Made by a program: the position numbers and the translations under genes. A DNA stretch of 64,000 bases from IMG/VR virus record IMGVR_UViG_3300027763_000001, positions 30,462 through 94,461 of that record; one strand, given 5' to 3'. The stretch comes from a virus. Under the pieces are notes generated by a model, which ran no database searches, was not told where the DNA came from, and saw only the letters and a program-made list of their open reading frames with translations. Position 1 is the stretch's first letter; the number at the start of each line of letters is the position of its first letter. Below, in pieces: positions 10,460 to 57,811 of this stretch.

Positions 10460-10462
10460 GCC

Positions 10463-13400
10463 TTGGCCAACCAGACGATCACCACCGCACTCAACTATGA
10501 CAGCGCCGCTATTGGCGGTTTGCTGGATGGCGAGAGCATCACGATCAACGGCGGGTCGCTAACGATTGACGCGGACACGCAGATCAACCAGCAGGCGGCG
10601 GCGTTTGGCAATGTCACGCTGTCGTCGACGCTGAGCGGGTCGGTCCTGATCGACGGCATGAAGGTCTGGGAGGTGCCGTTCTCGTCGGCGTCTGGAAACG
10701 TGCCCACGCAGGCGGCGCTCGGGAGCAATAACGTCACAGGCGGCACCAGCGGCGCGACGGGTGAGTTGACCCGTGTGTGGGCGGCAGGATCGTTTGACCC
10801 TGCCGCGGCGGGCGGCGCTATGCCTGCTTCGGGCTACATCAAGCTGCGGAGCACGACCGGAAACTTCCAAGCGGGCGAGAGCATTACGCTTCCGGGCGGT
10901 GCCACGATTGTCGCCAGCAATGCGGGCAAGCGCGGCACCATCCAAGTCATCGCGCGCACGATTGGCGGGGTCGGCGTTTTCATGGCAGTACCGCGTCTGG
11001 CTTCCTGCGTTGTCGATGGCACCTGGTACGAGCTGGGCACCACTGACGGCACGAACAATCAGATTTTCACGCTGCCCGTGCGCGAGGAATTAGGCGGCAT
11101 CCAGATCGAGACTGCCCCCGGATCGGGCGTTTATGAGTGGTACCCCAACGCAGGCGACATTTGGAACGGCCACTACACTGTCAACGAGGGACTGAATATC
11201 ACCAATGGCACCCTGGCAAGGAATGCCATTTCGGCGTTTCCCTATCCACCGGCGGAACGTCTCCGGGAAACTACGGCAACGGGCGTGCATAGTGCTTCGT
11301 TCCCGCTTGGTCAATTCGACACCAGCTTCCCGCCTGGCACCTATACCTTTTCCACCGTCTTGAAGCGTGAGACGCGGCAATGGGCAGCGGTACAGTTTTC
11401 CACAAATGGCGGTGCCGACCGTTACGGCGTATTGGTGGACCTGGACGCGGGGACGCTCACTGCTATCCCTAATGTCGGCAATCCGACCGGAACAAACTCT
11501 TCGATTGCCGTAGATAGCAACGGCTGGTATCGGGTAAACGTCACGATTAACCACTCAGGCGCGGGACAGACCGGCCAATGTACCGTTGCAACTTCAAACT
11601 CCGCAACCCCGACCTATGTGACCGGCCTGCCGTCCTTTGCCGGCAACGCCTCGGAGGGCGTCTATATCGCCCTGTCGCGGCTGGAAATGGCAACGTTCTC
11701 TTTCATCCCTACGAATGATGTTCGCGGAAAGTATTGCGCTGTGGACCCGATTGCGGGAACAGTTAAGCTGGCACTTCGCGGAGCAAATAATTCCGGCTTC
11801 AAACCACCTTCGGGCTGCAAGGTCAGGATACCAAACGTCTTTTTGTCCACCACGCAACCGGTAGATAGCGCCGCACCGATGCTGACCGCGCTGAACACGC
11901 GGTACTATATCCAATCCGGCAATCCCGGCCCCACGGTGAGAGGGGCTGTGCTGAATTGGTTCAACACCGGCAACATTGTGATTTCCGATAGCTGCACTAC
12001 ACAATACATCAACAGCACGGCAATCACTAACTGTTGCGTCGGTGTGGGCCTGATGCCATCAACCACTACCGCCCTCGCAATAGCAAACGTCACCGCCGGA
12101 AACGTGACCGATAGCCGATTCACCCGACGCAGTAACACGACGGTTTTTTCCGCAGTAGCTAGCACCAATATCGCAATCCAGCGATGCCGGTTTGACCTGA
12201 TTGCCCGCTGGCAGGGCCTTTCGCAAAGGCAAACGACCGGACCAACTCAGTTCCCTACTGTGAATTTGGGAATGTCCAACTTCGTTTTCGAGGACGGCGA
12301 GGTGATCAATGGGCAGACTACAATCGGCGCGGGAAACTCAAACGGCCTGATCAAGAATTTTAAGTACGCGGATGTCATGGCCGGCGGCACCCCCGCAGTA
12401 GCGAGTTCGGCTATTCTTGCGCAAGGCACAAACATCACGATTGATGGGTTTACGGCGCTAGGTGGATTGCTGAATGTACATCCCTATGACCAGATTGTGA
12501 ACCTTGCGGTCAGCGGCGGATATTACACCAACCTGTCAATTGGAAACATCGGCACACCGTCAGCCCCGTTCAATGGTGGTACGGTTAACCCGATGGGGTA
12601 CATCTTGAACGGGTTTGCGGGTTCCAGGGCCACACTCCGGCGCATCTACACCACTAATAACCGCCTCGGGCCTGTGTTGTTTACTGCAAACGGCCCGTTG
12701 TTTGAAATGTTCGATGTCTGGGCCACCGGATCACAATTTATCGACTTGAACGGCCCATCTATCACCAGCCGGGGCGGTCGCTGGTCGAATTTCAGGCGCG
12801 GCGTTGCGAATGCAAACGGCACTCATTGGGATGATGCATATATCTCCACTACGAATGGGCGCATTACGGTCATGGCAAACGAGCCTACAGTCGCTTCCGC
12901 AAGCCAATTTTCCGGCACATTCGGCATCGGCTCCGGCTATACCGGCACAGGCAGCATAGTTCTTTCAAGGTTGACGGATGAGGCAGTCTGGACCTCGCCC
13001 CATCGGTTCTATGGTCACACCGCGTTCGGCGGCGGTGGATCGCCCGGCGGGGCAGGCACGCAAAACCTGCTTTGGGAATACAAGATCGACACGGGCAGCG
13101 GTTTTGGAGCGTCCTGGACATTTTTGGCAAACACGGTGCAAACCGTTGGCGACCCGGCGAATGGCGCGACCACGGTAACGATGAACGGAACCGACTTGGC
13201 GGCGCTGACCCGCCAGCCGCAGATCGGGGATTTTATCCAGCACAGCACTTTCCGACTGCCGCAGGATACGATCATCACCAACATCGTCGGGAACGTGATC
13301 AGCGTCTCCAACGCTTTCGTCTCCTCGCTGCTGGGCCCAAGCGGCACGATTTCTTTCTCGCCGGTTAACGTCGCTGTCAGCCCGACCGATGGCTACCTCC

Positions 13401-25526: not shown

Positions 25527-26039
25527 TCAATTCCTCGTGGTTGGTGCTGGGAGGCTCGATCGGGCTCTATCAGCGCTCGTCGCTGCGCCAAGGTAAGTCT
25601 GCAGCAGCGGCGCGTTTACTGCCTGCGCCCCCTCGAAGGTGGCCAGCCCTGTCCCGTAACGATTGCCCGCCCGGGTGAGCCCATCACCCTGGGGGGCGAA
25701 CAGCTGTCCCATCGCCCATTCCTTCGCTCCCGAGCCCCGCAGGCCGGAGGCGGACTGCAGGAGCCGATCCGCCAGCGTCGCCTTGCGGGTTTGCTTGCGC
25801 TGCTTCTCCAGCGCCGCAATCTCGGCCTTCTGCTCCAGAGTCCGCTGGCGATTGACCAGGTTCGTGTTGGCTAGCTGCGCCTGGTTGTTGAGCCCAGTCT
25901 GGGCCAATGGCGCCATCAAGGCAGCCGTTTGCGTCGGCATCTGCCCCAGCAGCATGTCCGAACCGTTATCGAACACCGTCCCTTGGAGCGGGGCGACCGG
26001 GCGAAACGTCTGAGTGTAGGCACCAGCAAGAGCGCTCAT
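25527..26039 (-). CDS. Small virion operon protein
   Basis: 170 aa. After MSALAGAYTQTFRPVAPLQG it is Gln/Ala/Asn-rich and helical, with a strong coiled-coil-like section (NLVNRQRTLEQKAEIAALEK). It sits 3 nt before the next gene and 6 nt after the previous stop. No recognisable family. Composition is shared with its neighbours, consistent with a set of diverged internal virion proteins. Confidence 0.55.
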   Translation of the reverse strand: MSALAGAYTQTFRPVAPLQGTVFDNGSDMLLGQMPTQTAALMAPLAQTGLNNQAQLANTNLVNRQRTLEQKAEIAALEKQRKQTRKATLADRLLQSASGLRGSGAKEWAMGQLFAPQGDGLTRAGNRYGTGLATFEGAQAVNAPLLQTYLGAATSADRARSSLPAPTTRN

Positions 26040-30168: not shown

Positions 30169-32886
30169 TCACACCCTCCGCGCTCGCGCCAGGGCTATCA
30201 GCTGTTCCATCGTCGCGTTCCGCATCTGCGGCGCCCTGGCCGGGTCTACCCGAGAGGCGGATGGCGCCAAAGCCGGGTTTTGTCCCCACGTCCCCACCAC
30301 CGGGTCCGCCCCCGACAACCCCAAGGGCGGATTTTTGCGCGACTGGGGCTGCCACTCGAGTTCGCTCATCGACGGGCCTGCGCCCGCCTCGATACCGGTC
30401 TGCGCCGCCAGATCCCTTAGCAGTGTCCGCAGCCGCAGTTCGCCTCCAGTCCCGACCTGTTGAGACGCCATCGCAGGCCGCGCCTCGTCCCCGTACCGCC
30501 CGGGGCCCGTCACCGCGTTCAGCTCTAGTTCTGCGCCCACGTTGATCGGCCGCGCCGCGGGTGCCGAGTAGTCCGGCCCAGGACCCACCTCGCCCCTGGT
30601 CGGCGACATGACGTTCTCCCCCAGCCAGCCCTCTATCGCCGCCACCGTCTGCCGGTCGAATCGGCTTGGGGCCCGCATCACTTCCGCCGCCTGCCGTGGC
30701 GCCAGCCCGCCTGGCAGCTCCGCACCCTGGTTCAGTGCATATCCGCCCATCACGCTTTCGGCCGTTGGCGCTGGCACCGGCGGCGGCACTGGCACCCCCG
30801 GATAGATCTCGCCGCCCTTGAAGTCGTCGAACTGCCACATCCCGGGCGCTGCGTCCAGCCGCCTGCCCTGCACGTCTCGCGCATGTTCCAGCAGCGGCTT
30901 CACCACTCCGTGCCACGTATCGCCATACGCCTGGCTCGCAAGTGTCGGCCCAATCGCCGGCGCGCGCACCGGGGCGTCCTCTGCTGGACGGCCGCCCAGC
31001 CTCGCGATCGTGTCCAGCATCGTGAACAGCGAGTTGTCGTACACCGTCCCTCGCTCCGTTCGCCCCACCCGCTCCACCCGGTCCGGGAAGTCCCCGCGCA
31101 CCGCCGCGCTCCGGCTCGACACCGCGTCCGCCCCCAGCGTCCGCTGCATAGCCGTGTTCTGTACCGCATTGATCAGTGGATCCGTCAGTCCGGTGTCCCC
31201 CACCAGTCGCCAATCCCCCGGAACCCCCGCATACTCCGCCAGCGCCTGCACCAGCGACCGCGCTCCTTCCAGCTTCTCCTGCTGCCACTTTGCGTTCTCG
31301 CCCACTCGATATCGCCTGGTGAACACCTCATCGCCCTCGCCCTGCTCCGGCGCCCATTGATCCACGGCGAACACCGCCGGGCCCGGCACCGGCCGCCCGT
31401 CCTGCTCTTGCACGATCACCAGCTGCCCGTCGCCCAGGTCAGCCACCATCGGCTTCACGTCGGCCTCGTTCCAATATCGCTGCACTGCCCCGAAGTCCGG
31501 CTCCACCGGCCGCCGCCCCATCACCAGCGTCCGCACCGGCGTTTCGGCCTCCTCCAGCGCTCGCTGGAAGGCCTGTCCCACCGTTGGCCACGTTGCCGCC
31601 CTCGGCACCCCCGGATCGTTCGGCCGGCTAAATCCGTGCGTCCGGCCGAGCTCGTCGACGTTCCACTCTTCCGGATTCGGCGCTCCTACCGCCTCGTAGG
31701 CCCCCATCTCGAACTTCCCCGTCGCAGGCTCGGACTGCGAATACCGCTTGGCCAGCCCGATCAGCGGGTGGTCGTCCGCCAAGCCCAGATCCATCGGATC
31801 CAGCACCACGCTCGGATCCACCAGCAGCTGCCGCACGCCACGCGGGTCCACCGCCAACACCCGCCGCGCTTTCCCTTTCTCGTTCAGCTCGTAGGCGCTC
31901 TGGTCAGCAACCGCTTCCAGCTGCTTCAGCATTTGCCCCGCACGCGCCCGCTCCATCGGGCTGGCGCCGTAGGCCGCGGTCCGCTGCGCCTGCTCTCGCG
32001 CCTGCTGTACCCACTTCTGCTCCCGTGGCTGCTGCACCGTCGGTACCTCCGTCACCGTGCTCCCGTCCCACCGCTTCTGCTCCGATCGGCGTGCCATCAG
32101 CAACGGCACATCGCCGCCAACCACCCGCTCACCGAACGACTCCTTGGCCAGCGCATTCCGGCGTCCGCTCGTCCCCACCTTCTTCCCGTGCCCAAACGTC
32201 TGCCGTAGTAGCCGCTGCTCGTCCTGGTCCAGTTGCCGCACCTTGCTCCGCAGCGCCTGGACTGCCGGCTCGTCGGGCCCGTAATACGTTGGCCCGACCT
32301 GCAACCCCTCGCCTACCGCCGTCCCCGCCGGCACCAGATCCCCCGCGCGCTCCAGGGCTCTCCCCAGCCCCAGCTCATAAAACGCCCGGCGCACTTCCCC
32401 CTGGTCATCACGCCCCTGCCGCCGGAACCCGCTCCTGTTCTCCCTCGGCACCGACAACTGCTCACCAATAGCAATCGCTACGGCCTCCCGCGCACCCAAA
32501 TTCGGACCCCCAGGCCCCGAATCCATAAACTGCGCCGCCCGTAGCGCCGTATCCGCATCCAGACTTCCCGCCGGCACCCCCGCCATCCCCTCCAAGTCCT
32601 GCACAAAGCTCCACGTCCCCGGTTCCGGCTCCATTCCGGGCTCCAATTGGCTCAACAGCGTTGATGCCGCATCCATCCGTGCGCTCACCTCCTCAAACCC
32701 TTCCGTGTTTCGCCCTCCCTCCCGCGCGCGCCCCTCCCGCAGCCGCCTAATCATCGCCGGCCCCCTGTCATACCCCTTTAACCCCCGCTCCTCGGCAAAT
32801 CGCCGCGTTTCCGCAGGCTGGAAACCACCGTTTCGGCGGCTGCCGGGGCGAATCACACGCTCTCCTTGCCCGCCACTCATCGTCAT
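30169..32886 (-). CDS. Large (905 aa) virion operon protein
   Basis: The first gene of the long minus-strand late operon. Two in-frame ATGs, 32886 and 32880, are possible. It is Arg/Glu/Pro-rich and soluble, without membrane segments. Stretches such as ALRSKVRQLDQDEQRLLRQTFGHGKK and MERARAGQMLKQLEAVADQS are helical. The C-terminus (ATMEQLIALARARRV) is basic. No enzymatic motif was recognised. Large size at the head of an operon of small Gly/Ala proteins fits an ejected internal or large tail protein. The putative late-promoter element lies 33 nt upstream of the first ATG. Confidence 0.6.
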   Translation of the reverse strand: MTMSGGQGERVIRPGSRRNGGFQPAETRRFAEERGLKGYDRGPAMIRRLREGRAREGGRNTEGFEEVSARMDAASTLLSQLEPGMEPEPGTWSFVQDLEGMAGVPAGSLDADTALRAAQFMDSGPGGPNLGAREAVAIAIGEQLSVPRENRSGFRRQGRDDQGEVRRAFYELGLGRALERAGDLVPAGTAVGEGLQVGPTYYGPDEPAVQALRSKVRQLDQDEQRLLRQTFGHGKKVGTSGRRNALAKESFGERVVGGDVPLLMARRSEQKRWDGSTVTEVPTVQQPREQKWVQQAREQAQRTAAYGASPMERARAGQMLKQLEAVADQSAYELNEKGKARRVLAVDPRGVRQLLVDPSVVLDPMDLGLADDHPLIGLAKRYSQSEPATGKFEMGAYEAVGAPNPEEWNVDELGRTHGFSRPNDPGVPRAATWPTVGQAFQRALEEAETPVRTLVMGRRPVEPDFGAVQRYWNEADVKPMVADLGDGQLVIVQEQDGRPVPGPAVFAVDQWAPEQGEGDEVFTRRYRVGENAKWQQEKLEGARSLVQALAEYAGVPGDWRLVGDTGLTDPLINAVQNTAMQRTLGADAVSSRSAAVRGDFPDRVERVGRTERGTVYDNSLFTMLDTIARLGGRPAEDAPVRAPAIGPTLASQAYGDTWHGVVKPLLEHARDVQGRRLDAAPGMWQFDDFKGGEIYPGVPVPPPVPAPTAESVMGGYALNQGAELPGGLAPRQAAEVMRAPSRFDRQTVAAIEGWLGENVMSPTRGEVGPGPDYSAPAARPINVGAELELNAVTGPGRYGDEARPAMASQQVGTGGELRLRTLLRDLAAQTGIEAGAGPSMSELEWQPQSRKNPPLGLSGADPVVGTWGQNPALAPSASRVDPARAPQMRNATMEQLIALARARRV

Positions 32887-32919
32887 CGCCCTTCCGCCCC
32901 GCTGAGTCTGGTGAGTCCG

Positions 32920-32930
32920 AGTCTAAGACC
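32920..32930 (-). promoter_or_regulatory. Late-type promoter element GGTCTTAGACT
   Basis: Read on the minus strand, this 11-mer lies 33 nt before the ATG of the 905-aa gene that opens the virion operon. It is identical to the element at 41962-41972 and a close match to that at 1520-1535. No standard -35/-10 pair is evident around it. A phage-specific late promoter or regulator site is inferred. Confidence 0.55.
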
Positions 32931-33106
32931 GCAGTTTCGGGTGGGACGCGCCGCCCAAAACGCATTCCTTGACCCACCCCGACCGCCCCTGACCCCTCTT
33001 GACACACTTCAGCCTTCCCGATGGCTCTTCTTAAGCACGCATCCACCACCCACTCATTAGCATCAAATGTTTTCTACTATTTTTTTTTTTCAAATTAACG
33101 TCTAAA

Positions 33107-33123
33107 GCACCCCATAGGGGTGC
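33107..33123. repeat. Perfect inverted repeat GCACCCC-ATA-GGGGTGC
   Basis: A 7-bp stem with a 3-nt loop in the divergent intergenic region. A T-run lies to its left and an A-run (33136-33143) to its right, so it could act as a terminator hairpin on either strand or as an operator. Confidence 0.6.
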
Positions 33124-33152
33124 GATACCCTCACGAAAAAAAACAACTGCTT

Positions 33153-33171
33153 GCACATGTACCGCATGTGC
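33153..33171. repeat. Perfect inverted repeat GCACATG-TACCG-CATGTGC
   Basis: A 7-bp arm, 5-nt loop dyad 30 bp from the previous inverted repeat. It is not followed by a T-run, so a protein-binding dyad is more likely than a terminator. Confidence 0.6.
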
Positions 33172-33269
33172 CGGCCTTGTCGCCGCAGTAGAGGTACCCG
33201 CAGCATGCGTTGACCAGCCACAGCCAACTTTAGCTGGATTTGCCAGCTATTGTAAGCCTTTGTCAGCCC

Positions 33270-33298
33270 TTGATTCTTTTAGCTTTGGGCTTTATATC
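33270..33298 (+). promoter_or_regulatory. Weak sigma70-like promoter candidate
   Basis: TTGATT (33270) and TATATC (33293) are separated by 17 bp in the A+T-rich part of the divergent region and point toward the early genes. Each hexamer matches 4 of 6 consensus bases. No gene starts for 470 bp downstream, so a long leader would be needed. Confidence 0.25.
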
Positions 33299-33746
33299 TC
33301 TTCATTTGTTGCTTTTCAGGTGTTTCACCGTTGCTTACGGCCGTGCGCTTGAGCAGGGCGTAAGTTTCGCTGTAGTTGGCAAGTGTTGCTGCGTGTGTCC
33401 ACCTTCGCCAGCTACCGCCAGCCATACTCTGATTAACCATTGTTTGCTATACCGCCCCTGCCACCCCCCGGCAGCGGTTTAGCACTTCGATTGGAGGGTA
33501 TCAGCGGTGCCCAGTGAGTGTATGAGTTATCTACACGCGATGGCACGTTATTTGTCTACGTTTATACCGCTGTTGTGCTTGTCCAGTGAGTATGAGCGCC
33601 TACCCGGCCTGCCATCAGCGGATGGTCGCTGCGCTCCCTTGTGTTTGGTTGCGGCTGCGCCGTGTTGATTGAGTTGGCTGTGGCTGACAGATGTGAGCTT
33701 GTGATTGCTGCTGCAGAGGTGGAGGGGTGATGGTGCGAACTTTATT

Positions 33747-33772
33747 CCCCGTGCATTTTCGGGGTTATCGAC
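33747..33772 (+). promoter_or_regulatory. RBS-occluding leader hairpin, copy 1
   Basis: The stem CCCCG/CGGGG (33747-33751 and 33760-33764) encloses the loop TGCATTTT. The 3' arm supplies the only GGGG ribosome-binding sequence, and eight nucleotides (TTATCGAC) separate it from ATG 33773. The same stem, loop and exact 8-nt spacing recur at 33933, 34224 and 34570. A translational control element is inferred. Confidence 0.65.
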
Positions 33773-33880
33773 ATGGCCATGACGATTGTACGCACACTGA
33801 ACGCTTTAGACGGGGTCATCGCTGCCCTTGTCTCCGGTTGGCGATTCCTGATCGACATCCTGTTTCCGGTTCCGTTCTGA
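33773..33880 (+). CDS. 35-residue peptide, first early gene
   Basis: The peptide MAMTIVRTLNALDGVIAALV ... FLIDILFPVPF is mostly hydrophobic and may be a short membrane or amphipathic helix. The frame is short, but its ATG sits exactly 8 nt after the conserved leader hairpin, as in three other genes, and a terminator hairpin follows 6 nt after its stop. Those flanking elements are the main evidence that it is expressed. Function is unknown; a host-directed early peptide is plausible. Confidence 0.5.
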   Translation: MAMTIVRTLNALDGVIAALVSGWRFLIDILFPVPF

Positions 33881-33886
33881 CCTGCT

Positions 33887-33918
33887 CCCCTCCTGGCATT
33901 GCTGGGAGGGGATTTCTT
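33887..33918 (+). terminator. Intrinsic terminator-like hairpin
   Basis: The stem CCCCTCC/GGAGGGG has an 11-nt loop and is followed by ATTTCTT. The loop begins TGGC, as in the hairpins at 34180, 34523 and 35812, so these terminators look related. It lies between the 35-residue gene and the next leader hairpin. Confidence 0.7.
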
Positions 33919-33932
33919 CGTGTCCTCTATTC

Positions 33933-33957
33933 CCCGTGCATCTCACGGGCTACCGCT
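33933..33957 (+). promoter_or_regulatory. RBS-occluding leader hairpin, copy 2
   Basis: The stem CCCGTG/CACGGG (33933-33938 and 33944-33949) has loop CATCT; 8 nt (CTACCGCT) follow before GTG 33958. The loop carries the GTGCAT core in the form GTGCATCTC. The right arm supplies the GGG ribosome-binding bases. Confidence 0.6.
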
Positions 33958-34164
33958 GTGCTCACCACTCGTCAGTTCACCTGGCTCTACGCAGGCTTGA
34001 CAGTTTTGTTCCTTGCGATCATCGCTGTCGGGGCCATCGTTGTGCCGCTTCAACTTGAGAAAGCTGTTACGCAGCAGTGTCTCACCCGGGACTGGCCGGC
34101 CGACAAGGCTGTCGCTACTGAGGCCTGGTGCAAGGGCAACGGCTATCAGGTCGGCAGGGGCTGA
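33958..34164 (+). CDS. Small single-span membrane protein
   Basis: 68 aa from GTG 33958, chosen because the leader hairpin lies 8 nt upstream; the frame extends further 5' but that part is unconvincing. One clear transmembrane segment (TWLYAGLTVLFLAIIAVGAI, residues about 8-30) is followed by a short periplasmic-type tail with two Cys (QQCLTRDW, EAWCKGNGYQ) that could form a disulfide. An early phage membrane protein, possibly for superinfection exclusion or membrane takeover, is inferred. Confidence 0.65.
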   Translation: MLTTRQFTWLYAGLTVLFLAIIAVGAIVVPLQLEKAVTQQCLTRDWPADKAVATEAWCKGNGYQVGRG

Positions 34165-34179
34165 ACCCTGCTTCCACTC

Positions 34180-34204
34180 CCCCTCTGGCTACTGGTCGGA
34201 GGGG
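34180..34204 (+). terminator. Terminator-like hairpin
   Basis: CCCCTCTGG pairs with TCGGAGGGG (G-U pairs included) around loop CTACTGG. The following T-stretch is weak (TTACCTC). It has the same TGGC-containing design as neighbouring hairpins. Confidence 0.5.
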
Positions 34205-34223
34205 TTACCTCGCGTCCTCCACT

Positions 34224-34249
34224 CCCCGTGCATTTTCGGGGTCACCGAC
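34224..34249 (+). promoter_or_regulatory. RBS-occluding leader hairpin, copy 3
   Basis: The stem CCCCG/CGGGG (34224-34228 and 34237-34241) with loop TGCATTTT is identical to copy 1, and TCACCGAC (8 nt) precedes ATG 34250. The identity with copy 1 extends through CGAC-ATG. Confidence 0.65.
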
Positions 34250-34516
34250 ATGCCTGAGAGCGCCCTTTATTTACTATCCCAGCGCCTGCGGCTGCTGGCT
34301 CGCCGTGACGTCCTGGTCTCCCCCGCCGGGGACCACGTCTCTGGCGCCATCCGGCAGCACTTCGAGCGCGCCTTCCAGCAGACGTCCGCGTTGCTCGACC
34401 TGGTGGTCGACGGCGACCAGCTGCAGGATTCAGACCTGCGCTGGCTGAGGCGGGCGCAAGCCCGAGTCGAGCGCTTGCGACCGCATGTGCGGGAGCTGGA
34501 GCACCAATCGGTTTAA
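34250..34516 (+). CDS. Small helical early protein
   Basis: 88 aa (MPESALYLLSQRLRLLARRD ... ARVERLRPHVRELEHQSV). It is Arg/Leu-rich and predicted all-helical, with a long C-terminal coiled-coil-like segment. ATG 34250 lies 8 nt after the conserved hairpin. No family is recognised. It may act on a host protein or DNA through its basic helices, but no function is assigned. Confidence 0.65.
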   Translation: MPESALYLLSQRLRLLARRDVLVSPAGDHVSGAIRQHFERAFQQTSALLDLVVDGDQLQDSDLRWLRRAQARVERLRPHVRELEHQSV

Positions 34517-34522
34517 GTCTTT

Positions 34523-34549
34523 CCCCTGTCTGGCACTGCCGGGCAGGGG
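34523..34549 (+). terminator. Terminator-like hairpin
   Basis: The stem CCCCTG/CAGGGG has an extended internal TCTGG/CCGGG pairing and is followed by TCTTCTCGTG. The tail sequence CTTC(T)CGTG also follows the hairpins at 33887 and 36408. Confidence 0.6.
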
Positions 34550-34569
34550 TCTTCTCGTGCACTCTTTGC

Positions 34570-34595
34570 CCCGTGCATTTTCACGGGCTGCCGCG
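34570..34595 (+). promoter_or_regulatory. RBS-occluding leader hairpin, copy 4
   Basis: The stem CCCGTG/CACGGG (34570-34575 and 34582-34587) has loop CATTTT; CTGCCGCG (8 nt) separates it from ATG 34596. It combines the stem of copy 2 with the loop of copies 1 and 3, and the covariation supports a functional RNA fold. Confidence 0.65.
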
Positions 34596-34841
34596 ATGGA
34601 TCATCCGATCGCTACTTTCGAAGAAGGACTGGCCTTGGCCCGCCGCCAAGCGCGGGTGTTCAAGGCTATGGGCTTCGACGGCCTGGTCTGCCCCAAGCGG
34701 AGCCAGGGCCGCATCGAACTTTTGGCCGCGAAGCCAAATTCGCGCACAACAGTTCACCTCACGTTTACCCCCAACGGAGTGGAGGTGGAAACCCTGCCAA
34801 CCGGCAGCCTGGCCAAGGCGCGAGTGTTGGCGGAAGCTTAG
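34596..34841 (+). CDS. Small early protein
   Basis: 81 aa (MDHPIATFEEGLALARRQAR...). Helices fill the first third, then a beta section (RIELLAAKPNSRTTVHLTFT) is followed by a short helix. The size and alpha/beta layout fit many unassigned phage early proteins. The start is fixed by the leader hairpin 8 nt upstream, and a strong terminator follows 24 nt after the stop. Confidence 0.65.
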   Translation: MDHPIATFEEGLALARRQARVFKAMGFDGLVCPKRSQGRIELLAAKPNSRTTVHLTFTPNGVEVETLPTGSLAKARVLAEA

Positions 34842-34864
34842 TCCTGCAGCCTGTGCCATGATCT

Positions 34865-34896
34865 CCCCGTCCTGCAGTTTGCGGGGCGGGGTTTTT
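34865..34896 (+). terminator. Strong intrinsic terminator
   Basis: CCCCGTCC pairs with GGGGCGGGG-type bases (outer CCCCG/CGGGG; one G-U) and is followed directly by TTTTT. It ends the fourth early cassette. Confidence 0.75.
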
Positions 34897-34920
34897 CACT
34901 GTCCTTCGACTCAATCTTTT

Positions 34921-35109
34921 GTGGCACGCTCTTTTGGCGGTCTCTTGCTAGTTGCCGTGGCCCTCGGCTACACCGCTGTGCTCGTGCATATCGGTCTGGG
35001 GGCTATCCCCGCTGCCGAGCGACTCCATGACGCGGCCGCCTGCCGCGCACAGGAAGGCCTGCCCACCGTGGGGCACGAGCGCCAGCTCCACTGCCGGGGG
35101 CTGCGGTGA
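34921..35109 (+). CDS. Small membrane protein
   Basis: 62 aa from GTG 34921. A transmembrane segment near the N-terminus (GGLLLVAVALGYTAVLVHIG) is followed by a short soluble tail with two Cys (AAACRAQEG, LHCRGLR). This is the same layout as the 33958 protein (one span plus a two-Cys tail), though sequence similarity is low. The start is chosen for the span and the preceding A+T-rich leader; the longer upstream frame overlaps the previous gene. Its stop overlaps the next GTG. Confidence 0.55.
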   Translation: MARSFGGLLLVAVALGYTAVLVHIGLGAIPAAERLHDAAACRAQEGLPTVGHERQLHCRGLR

Positions 35110-35291
35110 TTGACTGCAGCCACTACACATTTGAGCTATACCACGTCGGCTCTCCTAAGCCCCTTCGCACGAAGGTGATCATCACCCGCAAGGGCGTTGA
35201 CCAGGCGACTGCCGAGCTGCCAGCTCTTACTGCTGAATACCGGTGGCAGCTGGTGGCTATTAAGGGGCCGGCTGCCCGTTTCCTCTCTTAA
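35106..35291 (+). CDS. Small hypothetical protein
   Basis: 61 aa (GTG start overlapping the previous stop, GTGA). The sequence MIDCSHYTFELYHVGSPKPL ... WQLVAIKGPAARFLS is beta-rich and compact. No family is recognised. It lies in the early small-gene run and is translationally coupled to the membrane protein before it. Confidence 0.5.
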   Translation: MIDCSHYTFELYHVGSPKPLRTKVIITRKGVDQATAELPALTAEYRWQLVAIKGPAARFLS

Positions 35292-35303
35292 CCCTTCTTT
35301 CAC

Positions 35304-35495
35304 ATGTTCTCCATTTCCAACGGCGGCATGGCCGGCCGCATCGGCAACTTTGTCTGGTGCAACGGGTCGGACATGCTCGTCGATCGCTACGACAACTCCT
35401 TGCTCACCGGCGTCGACCGCTTTGGGGCCTGCTGGCTGCTCCCTCCCGAGCAGGCTGACACCTTCTGCCGGTGGATGCGGATCATTTTTGATTGA
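35304..35495 (+). CDS. Small hypothetical protein
   Basis: 63 aa (MFSISNGGMAGRIGNFVWCN...) with Cys, Trp and aromatic residues spread along the chain (FGACWLLPPEQADTFCRWMR). It starts 12 nt after the previous stop. No family is recognised. Confidence 0.5.
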   Translation: MFSISNGGMAGRIGNFVWCNGSDMLVDRYDNSLLTGVDRFGACWLLPPEQADTFCRWMRIIFD

Positions 35496-35561
35496 CCCGC
35501 ACATCCTGACCCATCCCGCCCGCCGGGACTTCCCGGCAATCCATCCCATTGCCTTTACCCC

Positions 35562-35771
35562 GTGACCAACATGTACCGCGTCGAAGCCCACAACGGTCAA
35601 ACCTGGGCCGATGGCGTCCGCTTCAACAGAAACACACAAGTGCCCGAGTTTTGCCGTCTGGCCAGAGCTGATCAGTTCGGCGATCCCCGAGACGCTCTGC
35701 GGTTCCGCCAGCAAGCGGCCAGGCTTTGCGGGGGCACCTTGCGCGTTGCCAGGGTGCCTGCTGATACCTGA
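35562..35771 (+). CDS. Small hypothetical protein
   Basis: 69 aa from GTG 35562; ATG 35571 is an equally good start giving MYRVEAHNGQTWADGVRF. Alternating beta strands are followed by an Arg-rich helix (DPRDALRFRQQAARLC). It is followed by a strong terminator 40 nt downstream. No family is recognised. Confidence 0.5.
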   Translation: MTNMYRVEAHNGQTWADGVRFNRNTQVPEFCRLARADQFGDPRDALRFRQQAARLCGGTLRVARVPADT

Positions 35772-35811
35772 CCCCAACCCGCCAGGCGCCGTGAGCCTGG
35801 CCCACACCTCT

Positions 35812-35844
35812 CCCCCTCTGGCCACCGGCTGGAGGGGGTTTTTT
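35812..35844 (+). terminator. Strong intrinsic terminator
   Basis: The stem CCCCCTC/GAGGGGG has a TGGCCACCGGCTG-type loop and is followed by six T. It separates the first early block from the SSB-like transcription unit. Confidence 0.85.
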
Positions 35845-35861
35845 ACTGCGCAGCTGCGGCT

Positions 35862-35892
35862 GTGCATCTTTTTCGTCCCTGTGGAAGCAGGG
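35862..35892 (+). promoter_or_regulatory. GTGCATCTTTTT leader plus hairpin before SSB-like gene
   Basis: GTGCATCTTTTT (35862-35873) is followed by the hairpin CCCTG-TGGAAG-CAGGG (35877-35892), 12 nt before the ATG. It is a relaxed version of the leaders at 33747-34595, with the GTGCAT-T(n) word before rather than inside the stem. Confidence 0.5.
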
Positions 35893-35904
35893 CTCACGTT
35901 TCCC

Positions 35905-36381
35905 ATGACCAGTCCAACTTCAACTACAACTAAGGCTGCTCTTTCTAACGAGCTGGAAATCTTCCAGGCCCGTGTGGCCTCACTGGAGGACCAGATCAGC
36001 ACCATGGAGCAGTGCGAGGTCCGCACCACCGTGTGGATCAACGACCGCATCACGACCGACACCACCCGCTCTGGCAAGAACCTGGTCAGATTCTCCGGAC
36101 AGAAGTCCGCCAGGAACCAGGACGGCACCCGCGTGTACGGTGCCTACTGGAACTTCGTCGCCTATGGCGACATGGCCGATCGCTTCGCCGAGCTGGCCGC
36201 CGACAACCAGAAGCTGGTGACCATCACCGCCTTCGAAAGCCCCTGGACGAACGGGGCGCGCAAGAGCGACTTCGTCGTCTTGAGCATCACCCCCTTCGCC
36301 CGTCCCGAAGCCGCCCCCGCCAGCGAGTCCGGCCCGGCTGAGAACTACGGAGACACCCACGGCGACGACATTCCGTTCTGA
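35905..36381 (+). CDS. Single-stranded DNA-binding (SSB-like) protein
   Basis: 158 aa from ATG 35905 (MTSPTSTTTKAALSNELEIF). A beta-rich OB-fold-like region spans about residues 35-125 (VRTTVWINDRITTDTTRSGK; FVAYGDMADRFAEL; LVTITAFESPW), with aromatic residues suited to ssDNA stacking. The protein ends in an acidic tail GDDIPF, almost identical to the SSB C-terminal tip that recruits replication and repair proteins. A short helical N-terminal extension precedes the fold. It heads its own unit between two terminators. A second, different SSB-type gene lies at 59141. Confidence 0.7.
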   Translation: MTSPTSTTTKAALSNELEIFQARVASLEDQISTMEQCEVRTTVWINDRITTDTTRSGKNLVRFSGQKSARNQDGTRVYGAYWNFVAYGDMADRFAELAADNQKLVTITAFESPWTNGARKSDFVVLSITPFARPEAAPASESGPAENYGDTHGDDIPF

Positions 36382-36407
36382 TTCCCCCGCCCCGCAGGGC
36401 GCACCCT

Positions 36408-36435
36408 GGGGCCCTGGTATTGCCGGGGCCCCTTT
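36408..36435 (+). terminator. Intrinsic terminator
   Basis: GGGGCCC/GGGCCCC with a TGGTATTGCCG-type loop, followed by TTTCTTCGTG. The same T-rich tail follows the hairpin at 33887. It ends the SSB-like unit. Confidence 0.8.
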
Positions 36436-36441
36436 CTTCGT

Positions 36442-36471
36442 GCGACAGTGCGCGTTGTTGACCACTGTTGC
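36442..36471. repeat. Imperfect inverted repeat in leader
   Basis: GCGACAGTG and CACTGTTGC pair at 8 of 9 positions around a 12-nt loop, directly after the terminator and before the 36515 gene. It could be a leader hairpin or an operator. Confidence 0.45.
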
Positions 36472-36514
36472 ACGCCCTTTACCTACCGAGACACAAGTGG
36501 CCTTCCTTCTTGCT

Positions 36515-36895
36515 ATGCCCAAACTCAAACTGCCCGCCGGTCAGCGCCTGGCTCAGGTCCTGGCGGGCGTCATCACTGTCGCTTTTTGGGTCTACGCCGC
36601 CGGGCGCTTCGCCCGCATCGGCTACGAATGGGCCCGCCCCCGCGTTGCCAAGGCGCTACATGCGTTGGCGATCGCCCTCGACGGAGGGCTGGCTTACCCG
36701 GACCAGCCGGAGCCGGATAGCGAGGCCGAGCTTCTTTGTGACTTCGGGACTCCGATGTACCGCAACGGCGTATCGGCGAGCTACGACCCCCCTGTTGCTG
36801 GCACCTTGTACCGCATGGCCACTGGGGAGCTGATCGCTTCTTCTCGCCCCCGCGCCCGCCAACGCAGGTCCCGGGCCGCTGCGGAGGCGACATGA
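36515..36895 (+). CDS. Small protein with one membrane-like segment
   Basis: 126 aa from ATG 36515 (MPKLKLPAGQRLAQVLAGVI...). A hydrophobic stretch (QVLAGVITVAFWVYAAGRFA, about 13-33) is followed by an amphipathic helix and an Arg-rich C-terminus (RPRARQRRSRAAAEAT). No family is recognised. The stop overlaps the next ATG (ATGA). Confidence 0.55.
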   Translation: MPKLKLPAGQRLAQVLAGVITVAFWVYAAGRFARIGYEWARPRVAKALHALAIALDGGLAYPDQPEPDSEAELLCDFGTPMYRNGVSASYDPPVAGTLYRMATGELIASSRPRARQRRSRAAAEAT

Positions 36896-37203
36896 CCAGA
36901 GCCTCGCGCAGTCTCCGTTTCGCGGACGACCTCGCTAAGAACCCGGTCACTTGGCCGGGGCTCTACCCCCGGTACGGGGTGACCAGCGACGGGCAGGCGC
37001 TCTGCCCCGACTGCTGCCGGGCGGAGCGCTCGTTGATCGGCACCACCACCGGCTCTGACGGCTGGTGCATCCTCGACACTTCCGCCGCCTGGGGCGACTG
37101 CGACATCAGCTGCAGCAACTGCAGCGCAGCGATTTTCGAGGCCGCCGCCGACGCCATCGCTGGACCTCTTGTTCCGCAACTAAGCCTATGGAAACACTCT
37201 TAA
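36892..37203 (+). CDS. Small zinc-finger-like protein
   Basis: 103 aa. Two cysteine pairs, CPDC (about 38-41) and CSNC (about 73-76), lie about 33 residues apart, the usual spacing of a treble-clef or zinc-ribbon site. The chain is otherwise Ala/Asp/Ser-rich. The start overlaps the previous stop and its last 16 nt overlap the exonuclease gene. It is one of at least five Cys-pair small proteins in the early region. Confidence 0.6.
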   Translation: MTRASRSLRFADDLAKNPVTWPGLYPRYGVTSDGQALCPDCCRAERSLIGTTTGSDGWCILDTSAAWGDCDISCSNCSAAIFEAAADAIAGPLVPQLSLWKHS

Positions 37204-37904
37204 TCGTCGACGTCGAGAGCACCGGCCTTGACCCCAGAAAGGACGCCCTGATCGAGGTCGGGGCCGTCCTGTTTGACATCAAACACCGGGCCGTCACGCA
37301 CCAATTCTCGGCCCTGCTGCCTACTCCGGTGAAGAACTCCGCTGAGCCCCTCAACGGGATCCCCGACCTTCTGCTGGAATCGAGCGTGGTCCATCGGCTG
37401 GACGGATGGGAGACCTGCTGCCTGCAGAGCTTTTACGACAAGGCCGATGCAGTGCTTGCGCACAAAGTCTCTTTCGACCGTCCGTGGCTGGAGCCGCTGC
37501 TCCGGACTGACGACAAGGGACAGCCCCGCAACTGGCCCCTCAAACCCTGGATCTGCACCCTGCAGGACGTCCGGTGGGCGTGCCCCGGACTCAAGGCCAA
37601 CCCGTCGCTGACCCGCCTGGCCCTGGCCCACGGCGTGCCGGTGTGGGCCGCCCACCGGGCCCTCACCGACTGCACTTACCTGGCCCAGGTGCTCGCCACC
37701 CGGGAAGACTTGCCCGGGCTGCTGCTGGATGCCCAGGCGCCCAAGGCCTTGTATTCAGCCGCAGTTCCCTACGAGCAGCGGCAGCTGGCCAAGGATGCCG
37801 GCTTCCTGTGGGAAGGCCATGACGTCCCAAAGGCCTGGACACGATGGCTGCGCGAGGACGAGATCTTCGGCCTGCCTTTCAAGGTGGCTCGTGTCGCTAG
37901 ATGA
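37188..37904 (+). CDS. DnaQ-like 3'-5' exonuclease
   Basis: 238 aa from ATG 37188. The DEDDh motifs are intact: Exo I D8-V-E10 (VDVESTGLD), Exo II around D97 (KVSFDRPWL), and Exo III H156 and D161 (AHRALTDCTYL). It would remove nucleotides from 3' ends for proofreading or nucleic-acid turnover; no polymerase gene lies adjacent. The C-terminal 50 residues (PYEQRQLAKDAGFLWEG ... KAWTRWL) form a small extra module of the kind found in proteins carrying an A-K-x-A/L-G-F/A-x-W motif, possibly a substrate- or partner-binding domain. It overlaps both neighbours. Confidence 0.85.
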   Translation: METLLIVDVESTGLDPRKDALIEVGAVLFDIKHRAVTHQFSALLPTPVKNSAEPLNGIPDLLLESSVVHRLDGWETCCLQSFYDKADAVLAHKVSFDRPWLEPLLRTDDKGQPRNWPLKPWICTLQDVRWACPGLKANPSLTRLALAHGVPVWAAHRALTDCTYLAQVLATREDLPGLLLDAQAPKALYSAAVPYEQRQLAKDAGFLWEGHDVPKAWTRWLREDEIFGLPFKVARVAR

Positions 37905-38097
37905 ACCCCTCTACCTCGGCGACCTCTCCGCCGTGGACCCCGCCTACAGCCGCCACATGGTCTGCCACGAGTGCAATGTCTCGTGGACCGGGTGCTGGGA
38001 CAACTTCCAGTGCCCGCGCTGTGGCGAAGGTGATCTTCCCTCTTCCGACCTCCTGTTCCCTTCCCATGACACAAGACGAACTTTGGAACCTAGCTGA
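37891..38097 (+). CDS. Small zinc-ribbon protein
   Basis: 68 aa from GTG 37891 (MSLDEPLYLGDLSAVDPAYS...). CHEC (about 25-28) and CPRC (about 41-44) form a classical four-Cys zinc ribbon. It overlaps the exonuclease by 14 nt and the next gene by 32 nt. Such minimal ribbons bind nucleic acid or protein partners; the target is unknown. Confidence 0.6.
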   Translation: MSLDEPLYLGDLSAVDPAYSRHMVCHECNVSWTGCWDNFQCPRCGEGDLPSSDLLFPSHDTRRTLEPS

Positions 38098-38269
38098 TTG
38101 CGCTGCTAATCGCGCGGTAGGAGCCTATTCAAGCGGTGACAAGGACAGGGCTAATCGCGAATTTGACACCGCTGAAATGTACCAGCGGCAGCATAGTTAT
38201 ACTTTAGCTGATTATCCCGGCGGCTTGCACACAGTACCTGCTCACTTAATCAAGAAGGCCCGTGGCTAG
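38066..38269 (+). CDS. Small hypothetical protein
   Basis: 67 aa (MTQDELWNLADCAANRAVGA...), helical, acidic at the N-terminus and basic at the C-terminus (HTVPAHLIKKARG). The leader is the pyrimidine-rich CTGTTCCCTTCCC directly before ATG, typical of early genes here. No family is recognised. Confidence 0.6.
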   Translation: MTQDELWNLADCAANRAVGAYSSGDKDRANREFDTAEMYQRQHSYTLADYPGGLHTVPAHLIKKARG

Positions 38270-38309
38270 CGCCAACAGAGATTGCGATTCTTTGCCAGCA
38301 CTCCCCCAG

Positions 38310-43080: not shown

Positions 43081-43107
43081 GGACAATGGTGCTGTGCATT
43101 TTTGTCC
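43081..43107 (+). promoter_or_regulatory. Leader hairpin with GTGCATTTTT
   Basis: GGACAA/TTGTCC (43081-43086 and 43102-43107) encloses GTGCATTTT (43094). It follows the stop of the 42865 gene by 6 nt and precedes ATG 43139. It belongs to the GTGCAT-T(n) set, but the ribosome-binding geometry differs from copies 1-4. Confidence 0.5.
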
Positions 43108-43138: not shown

Positions 43139-43510
43139 ATGACGTTCTTCCAGCAACTCACCCTTGGCCCCATCTCCCTGCGCGCTGGCGGCGGTGACAA
43201 CTGGTCCCAGTTCGACCTGGCATTCACCACCAACCGCAACGCCGGGCAAGCAGCCCGCGAAACTGCCATTCGCTTCGGCTTCAAGTCAGACCACCTGTTG
43301 GCCCTGGCCGGCACCGACAACGCCAACGACACCTACGTCACCCCAGAAGGTAAGACCGTCTACGGCAAGGTATCCATAACCCCCGGCGGCGCCGTCCACA
43401 TCCTCACCGCCCACCAGGTCTACGCCGAACAGGTTCACCAAGCCAACCTCAAGTCCAGTCTTCAGCTGGCTGACGAAAGCGTGGCTGGCCTCGTCGTTGC
43501 TGCCGCCTGA
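43139..43510 (+). CDS. Hypothetical early protein
   Basis: 123 aa (MTFFQQLTLGPISLRAGGGD...), with Asn/Thr-rich beta strands (FDLAFTTNRNAGQAARETAI) and a helical C-terminus. The ATG follows an extreme C/T leader (CCCCCATCCCCTTCCA). No family is recognised; DNA binding is possible but untested. Confidence 0.6.
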   Translation: MTFFQQLTLGPISLRAGGGDNWSQFDLAFTTNRNAGQAARETAIRFGFKSDHLLALAGTDNANDTYVTPEGKTVYGKVSITPGGAVHILTAHQVYAEQVHQANLKSSLQLADESVAGLVVAAA

Positions 43511-45601: not shown

Positions 45602-45625
45602 GAGCAATTGCTCTGTGCATTTTTT
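45602..45625 (+). promoter_or_regulatory. GTGCAT-T6 leader after palindrome GAGCAATTGCTC
   Basis: A perfect 12-bp palindrome (45602-45613) is followed at 45615 by GTGCATTTTTT, 12 nt before ATG 45637. It is another copy of the GTGCAT-T(n) word at the head of a transcription unit. The palindrome plus T-run could also terminate the preceding unit. Confidence 0.5.
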
Positions 45626-45636
45626 CAGATCCCCTA

Positions 45637-46257
45637 ATGCAACCACAGCTTTCTGACGCTCCGGCAGCGATTGTGCCCGAGCCCGAGTCCCTGATCGCGC
45701 CACCCCAGGCGCGCTTTGGGATCACCACTCGCCCTGCTCCACCTGAGACCATCCGCATCGGGGTTACCAGCACCGGTGAGTGGTATGTCTATGGCTCCGA
45801 CGCCGCAGCCAAGGACCGCACACCGGTCGAGGCCTTGGCCACTCCCCGCATCCTCGACATCACCGTGGCCAGCCGCGGCATGGGATCCAGGTTCGGGCTC
45901 AGGCCCTACCTGGACGTCACCATGGCCGGCCCGGTGCCAGCCATCCGCTACGTGCTTTCACTGCCGTGCGGCCACCGGCCCACGCCCCACGCCGTCCGCA
46001 GCCTCCTGGGCTGCCTGCTCACCCTCGACTTGTCTGACACGGGGGTGATGCTGGTGCCAACCCGCGGTACCAGCGCAGCTTTCGTGAACGTTTATCTCGA
46101 TCCAGAAGGACAAAAGCAGGTCCGCGCTGAGCGCATCGGCCCGGACGAGTGCGATCTGCAACAGGCAGTTGACACCTGCCGCGGCAGGCTGGGGCTCCCG
46201 CCGCAGTTCGCACTGACCGGCGCGGCTGTTCAATCCTCCCTCGATCTAACCCCATGA
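45637..46257 (+). CDS. Hypothetical protein
   Basis: 206 aa (MQPQLSDAPAAIVPEPESLI...). The Pro-rich N-terminus is followed by repeated beta strands (TIRIGVTSTGEWYVYGSDAA; VPAIRYVLSLPCGH). The C-terminus ends in a helical stretch. An OB-fold is conceivable but no diagnostic motif is present. The stop overlaps the next gene. Confidence 0.6.
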   Translation: MQPQLSDAPAAIVPEPESLIAPPQARFGITTRPAPPETIRIGVTSTGEWYVYGSDAAAKDRTPVEALATPRILDITVASRGMGSRFGLRPYLDVTMAGPVPAIRYVLSLPCGHRPTPHAVRSLLGCLLTLDLSDTGVMLVPTRGTSAAFVNVYLDPEGQKQVRAERIGPDECDLQQAVDTCRGRLGLPPQFALTGAAVQSSLDLTP

Positions 46258-56590: not shown

Positions 56591-57811
56591 ATGACTTCCC
56601 AGTACATCCCCACCGACGGTGTTCCCATCAAGGCTTGGGTCGACGGCGTCCCTATCGAGGACCGGGCCGTGCAGCAGCTTCGCAACCTGGCCAGCCTGCC
56701 CTTCATGCACCACCACGTCGCCGCCATGCCGGATGTCCACTGGGGCATGGGCGCGACGATCGGCTCGGTGATCGCCACCAAGGGCGCCATCATTCCCGCA
56801 GCTGTCGGCGTCGACATTGGCTGCGGCATGTGCGCCCTGCGCACCAGCCTCACCGCCAGCGACCTGCCCGACGACTTGGGCCCCTTGCGCAGCGCAATCG
56901 AAGCGGCGATCCCCCACGGCCGCAGCAACGACGGCGGCCCGGGTGATGTTGGCGCCCACCGCGAGCCGCCAGCCAACGTCTGCGACGCCGTCCGCCTGTT
57001 GCAGCCCCGGCTCGACGGCATTATCGCCAAGCATCAGCCCATCAGCAAGGCGGCCGGGCGCGCCGCGATTCATGCCGGCACCCTCGGCGGCGGCAATCAC
57101 TTCGTGGAGGTCTGCATCGACGAGGACCAGCGCGTCTGGGTGATGCTCCACTCCGGCAGCCGGGGCATCGGCAATCGCATTGGCACCTACTTTATTGAAA
57201 GGGCTCGCAAGGAGATGGAGCGCCACTTCATCCAGCTGCCGGACCGCGACCTCGCCTACTTAGTTGAGGGCAGCGAGCTGTTCGACGACTACGTCGAAGC
57301 CGTTGGCTGGGCCCAAGACTTCGCCCGTCTCAACCGCGACCTAATGATGACGGCCGCTCTACGGGCTTTAGCCCAGGCCGTGCCCAAGCAGTTTGCCTGC
57401 GACTGCGAGGCGGTCAACTGCCACCACAACTACGTGAGCCGCGAGCGCCACTTCGGGGCCGACGTCATGCTTACCCGCAAGGGCGCTGTCTCTGCCAAGG
57501 AAGGCGAGCTCGGAATTATTCCCGGCAGCATGGGGGCCAAGTCCTTCATCGTCTCCGGCAAGGGCAACCGCGAGTCCTTCTGTTCCTGCTCACACGGCGC
57601 CGGCCGTCTGATGGGCCGCAAGGAGGCCAAGCGCCGCTTCACTGTGGAAGACCACGTCGCCGCCACCGCCGGCGTCGAATGCCGCAAAGACGAAGGGGTG
57701 ATCGACGAGACACCTGCCGCTTACAAGGACATCGACGCTGTCATGGCTGCCCAGGCGGACTTGGTGGAGATCCGCCACACTCTCCGTCAAGTCCTCTGTG
57801 TGAAGGGCTGA
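56591..57811 (+). CDS. rtcB: RtcB RNA-splicing/repair ligase
   Basis: 406 aa, close to the usual bacterial length. Hallmarks are DVHWGMGATIGSV (about 48-60), VDIGCGM (about 74-80), GGGNHFVE (about 160-167), HSGSRGIGN, and the catalytic-histidine loop FCSCSHGAGR (about 330-339), with CHHNY. RtcB seals 2',3'-cyclic-phosphate or 3'-phosphate ends to 5'-OH RNA using GTP and Mn2+. In a phage it would repair tRNAs or other RNAs cut by host nucleases, like the T4 tRNA-repair enzymes but by a different chemistry. It follows an HTPxW gene and is the largest plus-strand gene of the block. Confidence 0.95.
   Translation: MTSQYIPTDGVPIKAWVDGVPIEDRAVQQLRNLASLPFMHHHVAAMPDVHWGMGATIGSVIATKGAIIPAAVGVDIGCGMCALRTSLTASDLPDDLGPLRSAIEAAIPHGRSNDGGPGDVGAHREPPANVCDAVRLLQPRLDGIIAKHQPISKAAGRAAIHAGTLGGGNHFVEVCIDEDQRVWVMLHSGSRGIGNRIGTYFIERARKEMERHFIQLPDRDLAYLVEGSELFDDYVEAVGWAQDFARLNRDLMMTAALRALAQAVPKQFACDCEAVNCHHNYVSRERHFGADVMLTRKGAVSAKEGELGIIPGSMGAKSFIVSGKGNRESFCSCSHGAGRLMGRKEAKRRFTVEDHVAATAGVECRKDEGVIDETPAAYKDIDAVMAAQADLVEIRHTLRQVLCVKG

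Follow-up and report, generated by a model that had tools for sequence, protein, structure and literature searches.

Terminator and start modules as probable expression and gene-exchange sites between small genes of an S-EIV1-like cyanophage

In an S-EIV1-like cyanophage genome, the small genes at the head of the rightward block are separated by a repeated composite element, a terminator followed by a start module. We think it probable that this composite both permits independent expression of the next gene and serves as an exchange site. Its first part, a 12-bp stem with a 3-nt loop and a tail that is mostly T-rich, would act as an intrinsic terminator of the preceding gene. Its second part would be a start module of about 45 nt that runs to the start codon, with the layout TCGTG...CTC...CCCCGTGCATTTTC(AC)GGG plus an 8-nt spacer, and most likely carries the signal for independent expression of the following gene. 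Because this second part is near-identical at every slot, homologous exchange could replace, insert or delete a gene together with its 8-nt spacer.

The window analysed here is a stretch of 64,000 nt, spanning 30462-94461 in a virus record of 94,461 bp. The large terminase encoded by the record is 46% identical to its counterpart in Synechococcus phage S-EIV1, and among named phages a head protein matches S-EIV1 alone. These similarities place the record as a relative of this freshwater cyanobacterial phage and not among the T4-type phages. Megablast and blastn searches of the region against named phages gave no match, and an Rfam covariance-model scan of the window gave nothing at the gathering threshold. 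The leftward genes reach to 32886 and the rightward ones, opened by the leader/terminator array, start at 33773; the two blocks are separated by about 0.8 kb of noncoding DNA. A 660-nt stretch compared within this gap (32886-33773) is 97-98% identical among relatives. Between 32890 and 33740 the gap contains two palindromes (GCACCCCATAGGGGTGC and GCACATG..CATGTGC), 10-nt units resembling TTTGCCAGC in tandem near 33239-33268, and a promoter-like pair, TTGATT-N17-TATATC, at 33270-33298; it is a candidate origin and/or early promoter region. The array itself may be expressed early, as its position and its SSB-like and exonuclease neighbours suggest. The SSB-like label was given by eye, from an S-EIV1-type gene order and a DDIPF-type tail; the protein matched no family. 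The phage also encodes an RtcB RNA ligase at 56591-57811 (Pfam E 3.1e-129).

Table 1. Features of the array and related sites in the window (window coordinates).
Feature	Position	Strand	Description
Leader hairpin 1	33747..33764	+	CCCCG-TGCATTTT-CGGGG; 8-nt loop; spacer 33765-33772; ATG 33773
Slot-1 gene	33773..33880	+	35 aa, hydrophobic; different gene in relatives
Terminator T1	33886..33912	+	12-bp stem, ATT loop, then TTTCTTCGTG
Leader hairpin 2	33933..33949	+	CCCGTG-CATCT-CACGGG; 5-nt loop; spacer 33950-33957; GTG 33958
Slot-2 gene	33958..34164	+	68 aa, with a hydrophobic segment; L201 has the identical gene, L199 a replacement
Terminator T2	34179..34205	+	11 pairs plus unpaired outer position, ACT loop
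Leader hairpin 3	34224..34241	+	CCCCG-TGCATTTT-CGGGG; spacer 34242-34249; ATG 34250
Slot-3 gene	34250..34516	+	88 aa; 97% nt identity in relatives
Terminator T3	34523..34549	+	12-bp stem, ACT loop; followed in relatives by a leader and DUF4326 gene
Leader hairpin 4	34570..34587	+	CCCGTG-CATTTT-CACGGG; 6-nt loop; spacer 34588-34595; ATG 34596
Last slot gene	34596..34841	+	81 aa
Terminator T4	34865..34891	+	12-bp stem, GTT loop, tail TTTTTC; not followed by a CCCC/GGGG leader
Terminator T5	35812..35838	+	before SSB-like gene; TTTTTT tail
GTGCATCTT core	35862..35870	+	leader of SSB-like gene (start 35905); without CCCC/GGGG hairpin
Terminator T6	36407..36433	+	after SSB-like gene; then TTCTTCGTG
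GTGCATTTT core	43094..43102	+	upstream of gene at 43139
GTGCATTTT core	45615..45623	+	exactly 22 nt before gene at 45637

Three IMG/VR relatives (L199/L008, L200/L027 and L201/L046) carry five leaders each; modules are present in only four contigs, all close relatives, and the comparison is confined to these. Homology between the window and L199 falls into blocks at 32801-33767, 33887-33949, 34174-34587 and from 34546 onward, and that with L201 into blocks up to 33767, at 33905-34587 and from 34546 onward. Within the array the blocks end at 33767, 33949 and 34587, within 3 nt of the leader hairpin ends at 33764, 33949 and 34587; homology with L199 stops exactly at 33949, and with both relatives exactly at 34587. 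It restarts in a terminator or a few nt before one (33887, 34174 and 34546 for L199; 33905 and 34546 for L201). At these junctions the 8-nt spacer goes with its gene and the hairpin remains in place. The slot-1 gene of the window is unrelated to the one found there in the relatives. In the relatives, a gene for a DUF4326 protein (Pfam E 4.9e-17) lies between slot 3 and the last slot, accompanied by a leader and a terminator of its own. This cassette is absent from the window, where the slot-3 terminator joins the last leader directly, so that the T3-leader 4 junction consists of the relatives' slot-3 terminator and their last leader. In L199 the DUF4326 protein, cargo of the extra cassette, is encoded at 10347-10667.

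The sequence-only reading had proposed that the cassettes are used to swap small genes. The replacements at slots 1 and 2 and the DUF4326 insertion or deletion, all with junctions at modules, bear this out. Since the homology junctions of the array lie at leaders and terminators, the swap reading is well supported, and the cassettes appear to be gene-swap modules, an analogue of PeSLs and of mycobacteriophage SAS. The junctions are seen directly in the relatives; homologous recombination between modules would be the event behind them. We mark the slot genes as candidate host-interaction genes. The SSB-like gene follows the same pattern: it is 75% identical in L201, whereas the leader and terminator segment that flank it are 99% and 95% identical. 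Its leader (35841-35904; 98-99% identical in L201) contains a hairpin of its own, CCCTG-TGGAAG-CAGGG. Gene replacement is also found at module-free junctions in the same genomes (e.g. window 35506-35766 and 37906-38307). The modules are thus favoured or convenient exchange sites and not the sole route.

The terminators T1-T6 have 11-12 paired bases and a 3-nt loop, and all lie inside 33886-36433 (2.5 kb). A covariance model run on the record's entire sense strand retrieved exactly these six at E<1e-4 (all E<=1.6e-5), the next best match having an E of 0.3. In 16 distinct terminator sequences taken from three genomes, standard pairs fill 95.8% of the pair cells, compared with 70.8% in shuffles, and double-sided changes occur in 9 of the 12 pairs, compared with 6.2 in shuffles. 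Sliding the pairing partners abolishes this covariation signal. Moreover, the folding energies are unusual (z -3.5 to -5.2). A terminator scan was passed by T1, T4, T5 and T6, which have T-rich tails, and failed by T2 and T3, whose tails are T-poor. Leaders 2, 3 and 4 follow T1, T2 and T3 respectively, and no terminator lies upstream of leader 1. The earlier description of three leaders following a G+C-rich terminator with a TGGC-containing loop is therefore right as to the terminators but not as to the loop, because TGGC lies in the loop-proximal stem and the loop itself is ATT or ACT. With this paired structure, T1-T6 would act as intrinsic terminators that end the upstream gene. We rejected an antiterminator formed by pairing of the leader with the terminator, because the T-tail comes before the leader and the two hairpins stay separate when both elements are folded together.

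The four hairpins at ribosome sites were read directly and recomputed, and they stand as first described: each has a perfect stem of 5-6 bp whose 3' end lies 8 nt before the start codon. The spacers TTATCGAC, CTACCGCT, TCACCGAC and CTGCCGCG have CG at positions 5-6 in all four window leaders. The description of an 8-nt spacer with a CG core thus holds throughout the window, but the relatives' slot 1 has a 9-nt spacer with TG for CG (TTACTGACT). A leader model run over the 94-kb record found only the four leaders (best E 8.5e-16) and nothing further up to E=5. Three alleles are present: CCCCG-N8-CGGGG, CCCGTG-CATCT-CACGGG and CCCGTG-CATTTT-CACGGG. All 13 aligned leader copies, from three genomes, share the 5' half CCCCGTGCAT; CCCCGTGCAT and GGG are invariant, and the bases upstream of the leader and in the spacer vary. 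A small indel within the 3' half shifts the stem register between alleles; paired substitutions are not the source of the difference. The stem differences had been taken as compensating changes that favour an RNA fold, but as the left arm never varies, the leader stem has no true covariation. Nevertheless, the three alleles reach hairpin energies of -8.4, -8.4 and -8.7 kcal/mol through two registers, and when the 3' halves are shuffled a stem of at least 5 bp arises in only 1.0-3.5% of cases for each allele. We take these results as moderate evidence for a stem or dyad, though not as covariation proper. Taken as a whole, the leader region folds with ordinary energy (z -0.1 to -1.1).

With terminators between the genes, an expression signal of its own is expected in each start module. 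We counted every 8-mer and 9-mer of the four leaders in the regions upstream of other genes; only GTGCATTT/TGCATTTT/GTGCATTTT recurs before at least two of them. The corresponding pattern GTGCATYT precedes three further genes (the SSB-like gene and those at 43139 and 45637), compared with 0.08 expected from shuffles; the recurrence is suggestive and not a clean test, because the pattern was chosen after the leaders had been seen. The core lies 22 nt from the start codon in leaders 1-3 and at 45637, and 23 nt from it in leader 4. At 45637 the 22-nt distance is the same in the window and in L201, despite altered bases in between. These three further genes carry the core without the CCCC/GGGG hairpin, which indicates that the sequence core matters apart from that fold. 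A sigma70-like promoter scan of 32880-37300 returned 0 sites, with no recognisable -35/-10 elements, and a search for a Sigma70_r2 gene found none, its controls being positive.

The occurrence of GTGCATYT outside the hairpin makes a promoter or other DNA-site function at least as likely as an RNA hairpin. We prefer to see the start module as a promoter of unrecognised type around GTGCATYT, a choice in which we place about even confidence, with translational control by the hairpin next. The expression signal would then probably be a compact, non-sigma70-like promoter around this core; the dyad could alternatively be an operator or a hairpin beside the ribosome site. Under translational control, the ribosome-binding bases GGG(G) would be held in the 3' arm of an mRNA hairpin, which a protein or temperature would open or lock. 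We consider this possible, though on balance unlikely. It would account for three alleles that keep nearly the same energy in two registers, each improbable by chance, for the fixed 8-nt spacing of the window copies with the core 22-23 nt from the start, and for the core distance kept at 45637 in both genomes while the intervening bases differ. Pairing with the anti-SD also agrees with it in part: the GGGG alleles reach -6.2 kcal/mol, but the ACGGG/CACGGG alleles only -2.5, about the level of an average gene. Across the genes of this phage an SD signal is almost absent (mean anti-SD energy -2.8, compared with -3.0 at random positions). A sequestered SD is thus a plausible reading of the GGGG alleles and a weak one of the ACGGG alleles. 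The invariant left arm, which leaves no covariation, and the recurrence of the core before the SSB-like gene and the genes at 43139 and 45637 outside such a hairpin also speak against it. For the same reasons (invariant left arm, weak SD, core outside the hairpin), the earlier idea that one RNA-binding repressor or a thermosensor reads the leaders is unsupported.

The same inverted repeat could be a DNA operator, the dyad CCCGTG-N5-6-CACGGG being bound by a phage transcription factor as in the ESAS or cluster EG inverted repeats. It is perfect and lies near gene starts, and published repeats of this kind are thought to be operators or to bear promoters (PMC3203893, PMC11373665 and PMC7302621). 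However, an arm spacing of 5, 6 or 8 nt with a change of register is unusual for a rigid dimer site, and invariance is seen in only one of the arms, together with part of the loop. We therefore regard an operator as improbable. Neutral intergenic DNA, recently duplicated and alike only through recent copying and gene conversion, would explain why leaders at different slots are so similar in closely related genomes. Yet CCCCGTGCAT and GGG are fixed while upstream and spacer bases vary, and the terminators diverge widely but keep their pairing, which makes this reading very unlikely. Returning to the promoter around GTGCATYT, the stronger proposal is a gene-slot system of S-EIV1-like cyanophages in which the start module of about 45 nt belongs to a novel class of compact promoters or ribosome entry sites and doubles as an exchange site for accessory genes, a phage factor reading its GTGCATYT core 22 nt before the start codon. 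This seems to us doubtful though conceivable.

To our knowledge, gene control in the S-EIV1 cyanophage lineage is essentially unstudied. A search of related phages for the hairpin and spacer, as the sequence-only reading had suggested, succeeded in the three relatives but not in S-EIV1 or other terminase-related records, many of them fragments that stop short of the early region. A weak leader-model match in these records (E 0.003) was discarded; it has no GGG arm or nearby start and looks coding. A loose leader pattern hit at least 118 stretches in viral contigs, and among the matches fetched several copies occurred only in the known relatives. The terminator-plus-leader pattern hit five further contigs, none cassette-like, which were judged to be chance. 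A strict leader pattern had no match over contigs of 84,980 prokaryote genomes. As far as these searches reach, the leader family is known only from this S-EIV1-related sublineage. S-EIV1 itself (L202) has a 28-nt repeat family (TTTAA-GTCAT-C--GGAC) in five copies, at 25892, 30486, 33575, 38782 and 39501; they lie near starts or borders of leftward genes and are possibly start-linked.

The nearest parallels are the PeSL cassettes of T4-type phages, reportedly described by Arbiol in 2010 and Comeau in 2014. The array shares with them a composite of terminator and start signal between small variable genes, a stem-loop terminator between genes (here covarying 12-bp hairpins, 4/6 of which pass the terminator scan), and gene insertions, deletions or swaps at the modules between close relatives. 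PeSLs are reported to mediate shuffling between close T4-like phages (PMC4503421). Unlike PeSLs, the array has no adjacent host-sigma70-type early promoter (0 sites in 32880-37300), its phage is S-EIV1-like and not T4-type, and its start part extends as far as the start codon and includes a hairpin or dyad of its own; this comparison is one of organisation, not of sequence.

A second parallel is the SAS/ESAS family of Cluster K mycobacteriophages, start-linked repeats with inverted repeats (PMC3203893); in phage Adephagia, ESAS contain putative SigA-like promoters (PMC11373665). As in SAS/ESAS, a short, conserved, oriented sequence lies just upstream of the starts of several unrelated genes. 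In SAS/ESAS these are non-structural genes of different families; some of the sequences have inverted repeats and a putative promoter, and one copy has a candidate terminator before it (PMC3203893, PMC11373665). However, the array lacks the 13-bp SAS consensus GGGATAGGAGCCC with its SD core AGGAG and has CCCCGTGCATTTTC(AC)GGG with no clear SD; it also differs in having a covarying terminator before 3/4 copies and all copies in one 1-kb array. Microbacterium cluster EC phages have oriented repeats 21-30 nt before starts, and cluster EG phages have inverted repeats 14-22 nt before starts, kept while their surroundings differ (PMC7302621). These differ from the array in sequence and in number (8-12 copies per genome), and the passages that describe them report no linked terminators. 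The array would thus work like PeSLs and SAS/ESAS while belonging to neither, as it lacks a sequence-defining feature of each. It offers a testable case of regulatory modules setting the borders of gene gain and loss, and the finding of such borders outside T4-type phages and mycobacteriophages suggests that gene slots of this kind have evolved repeatedly.
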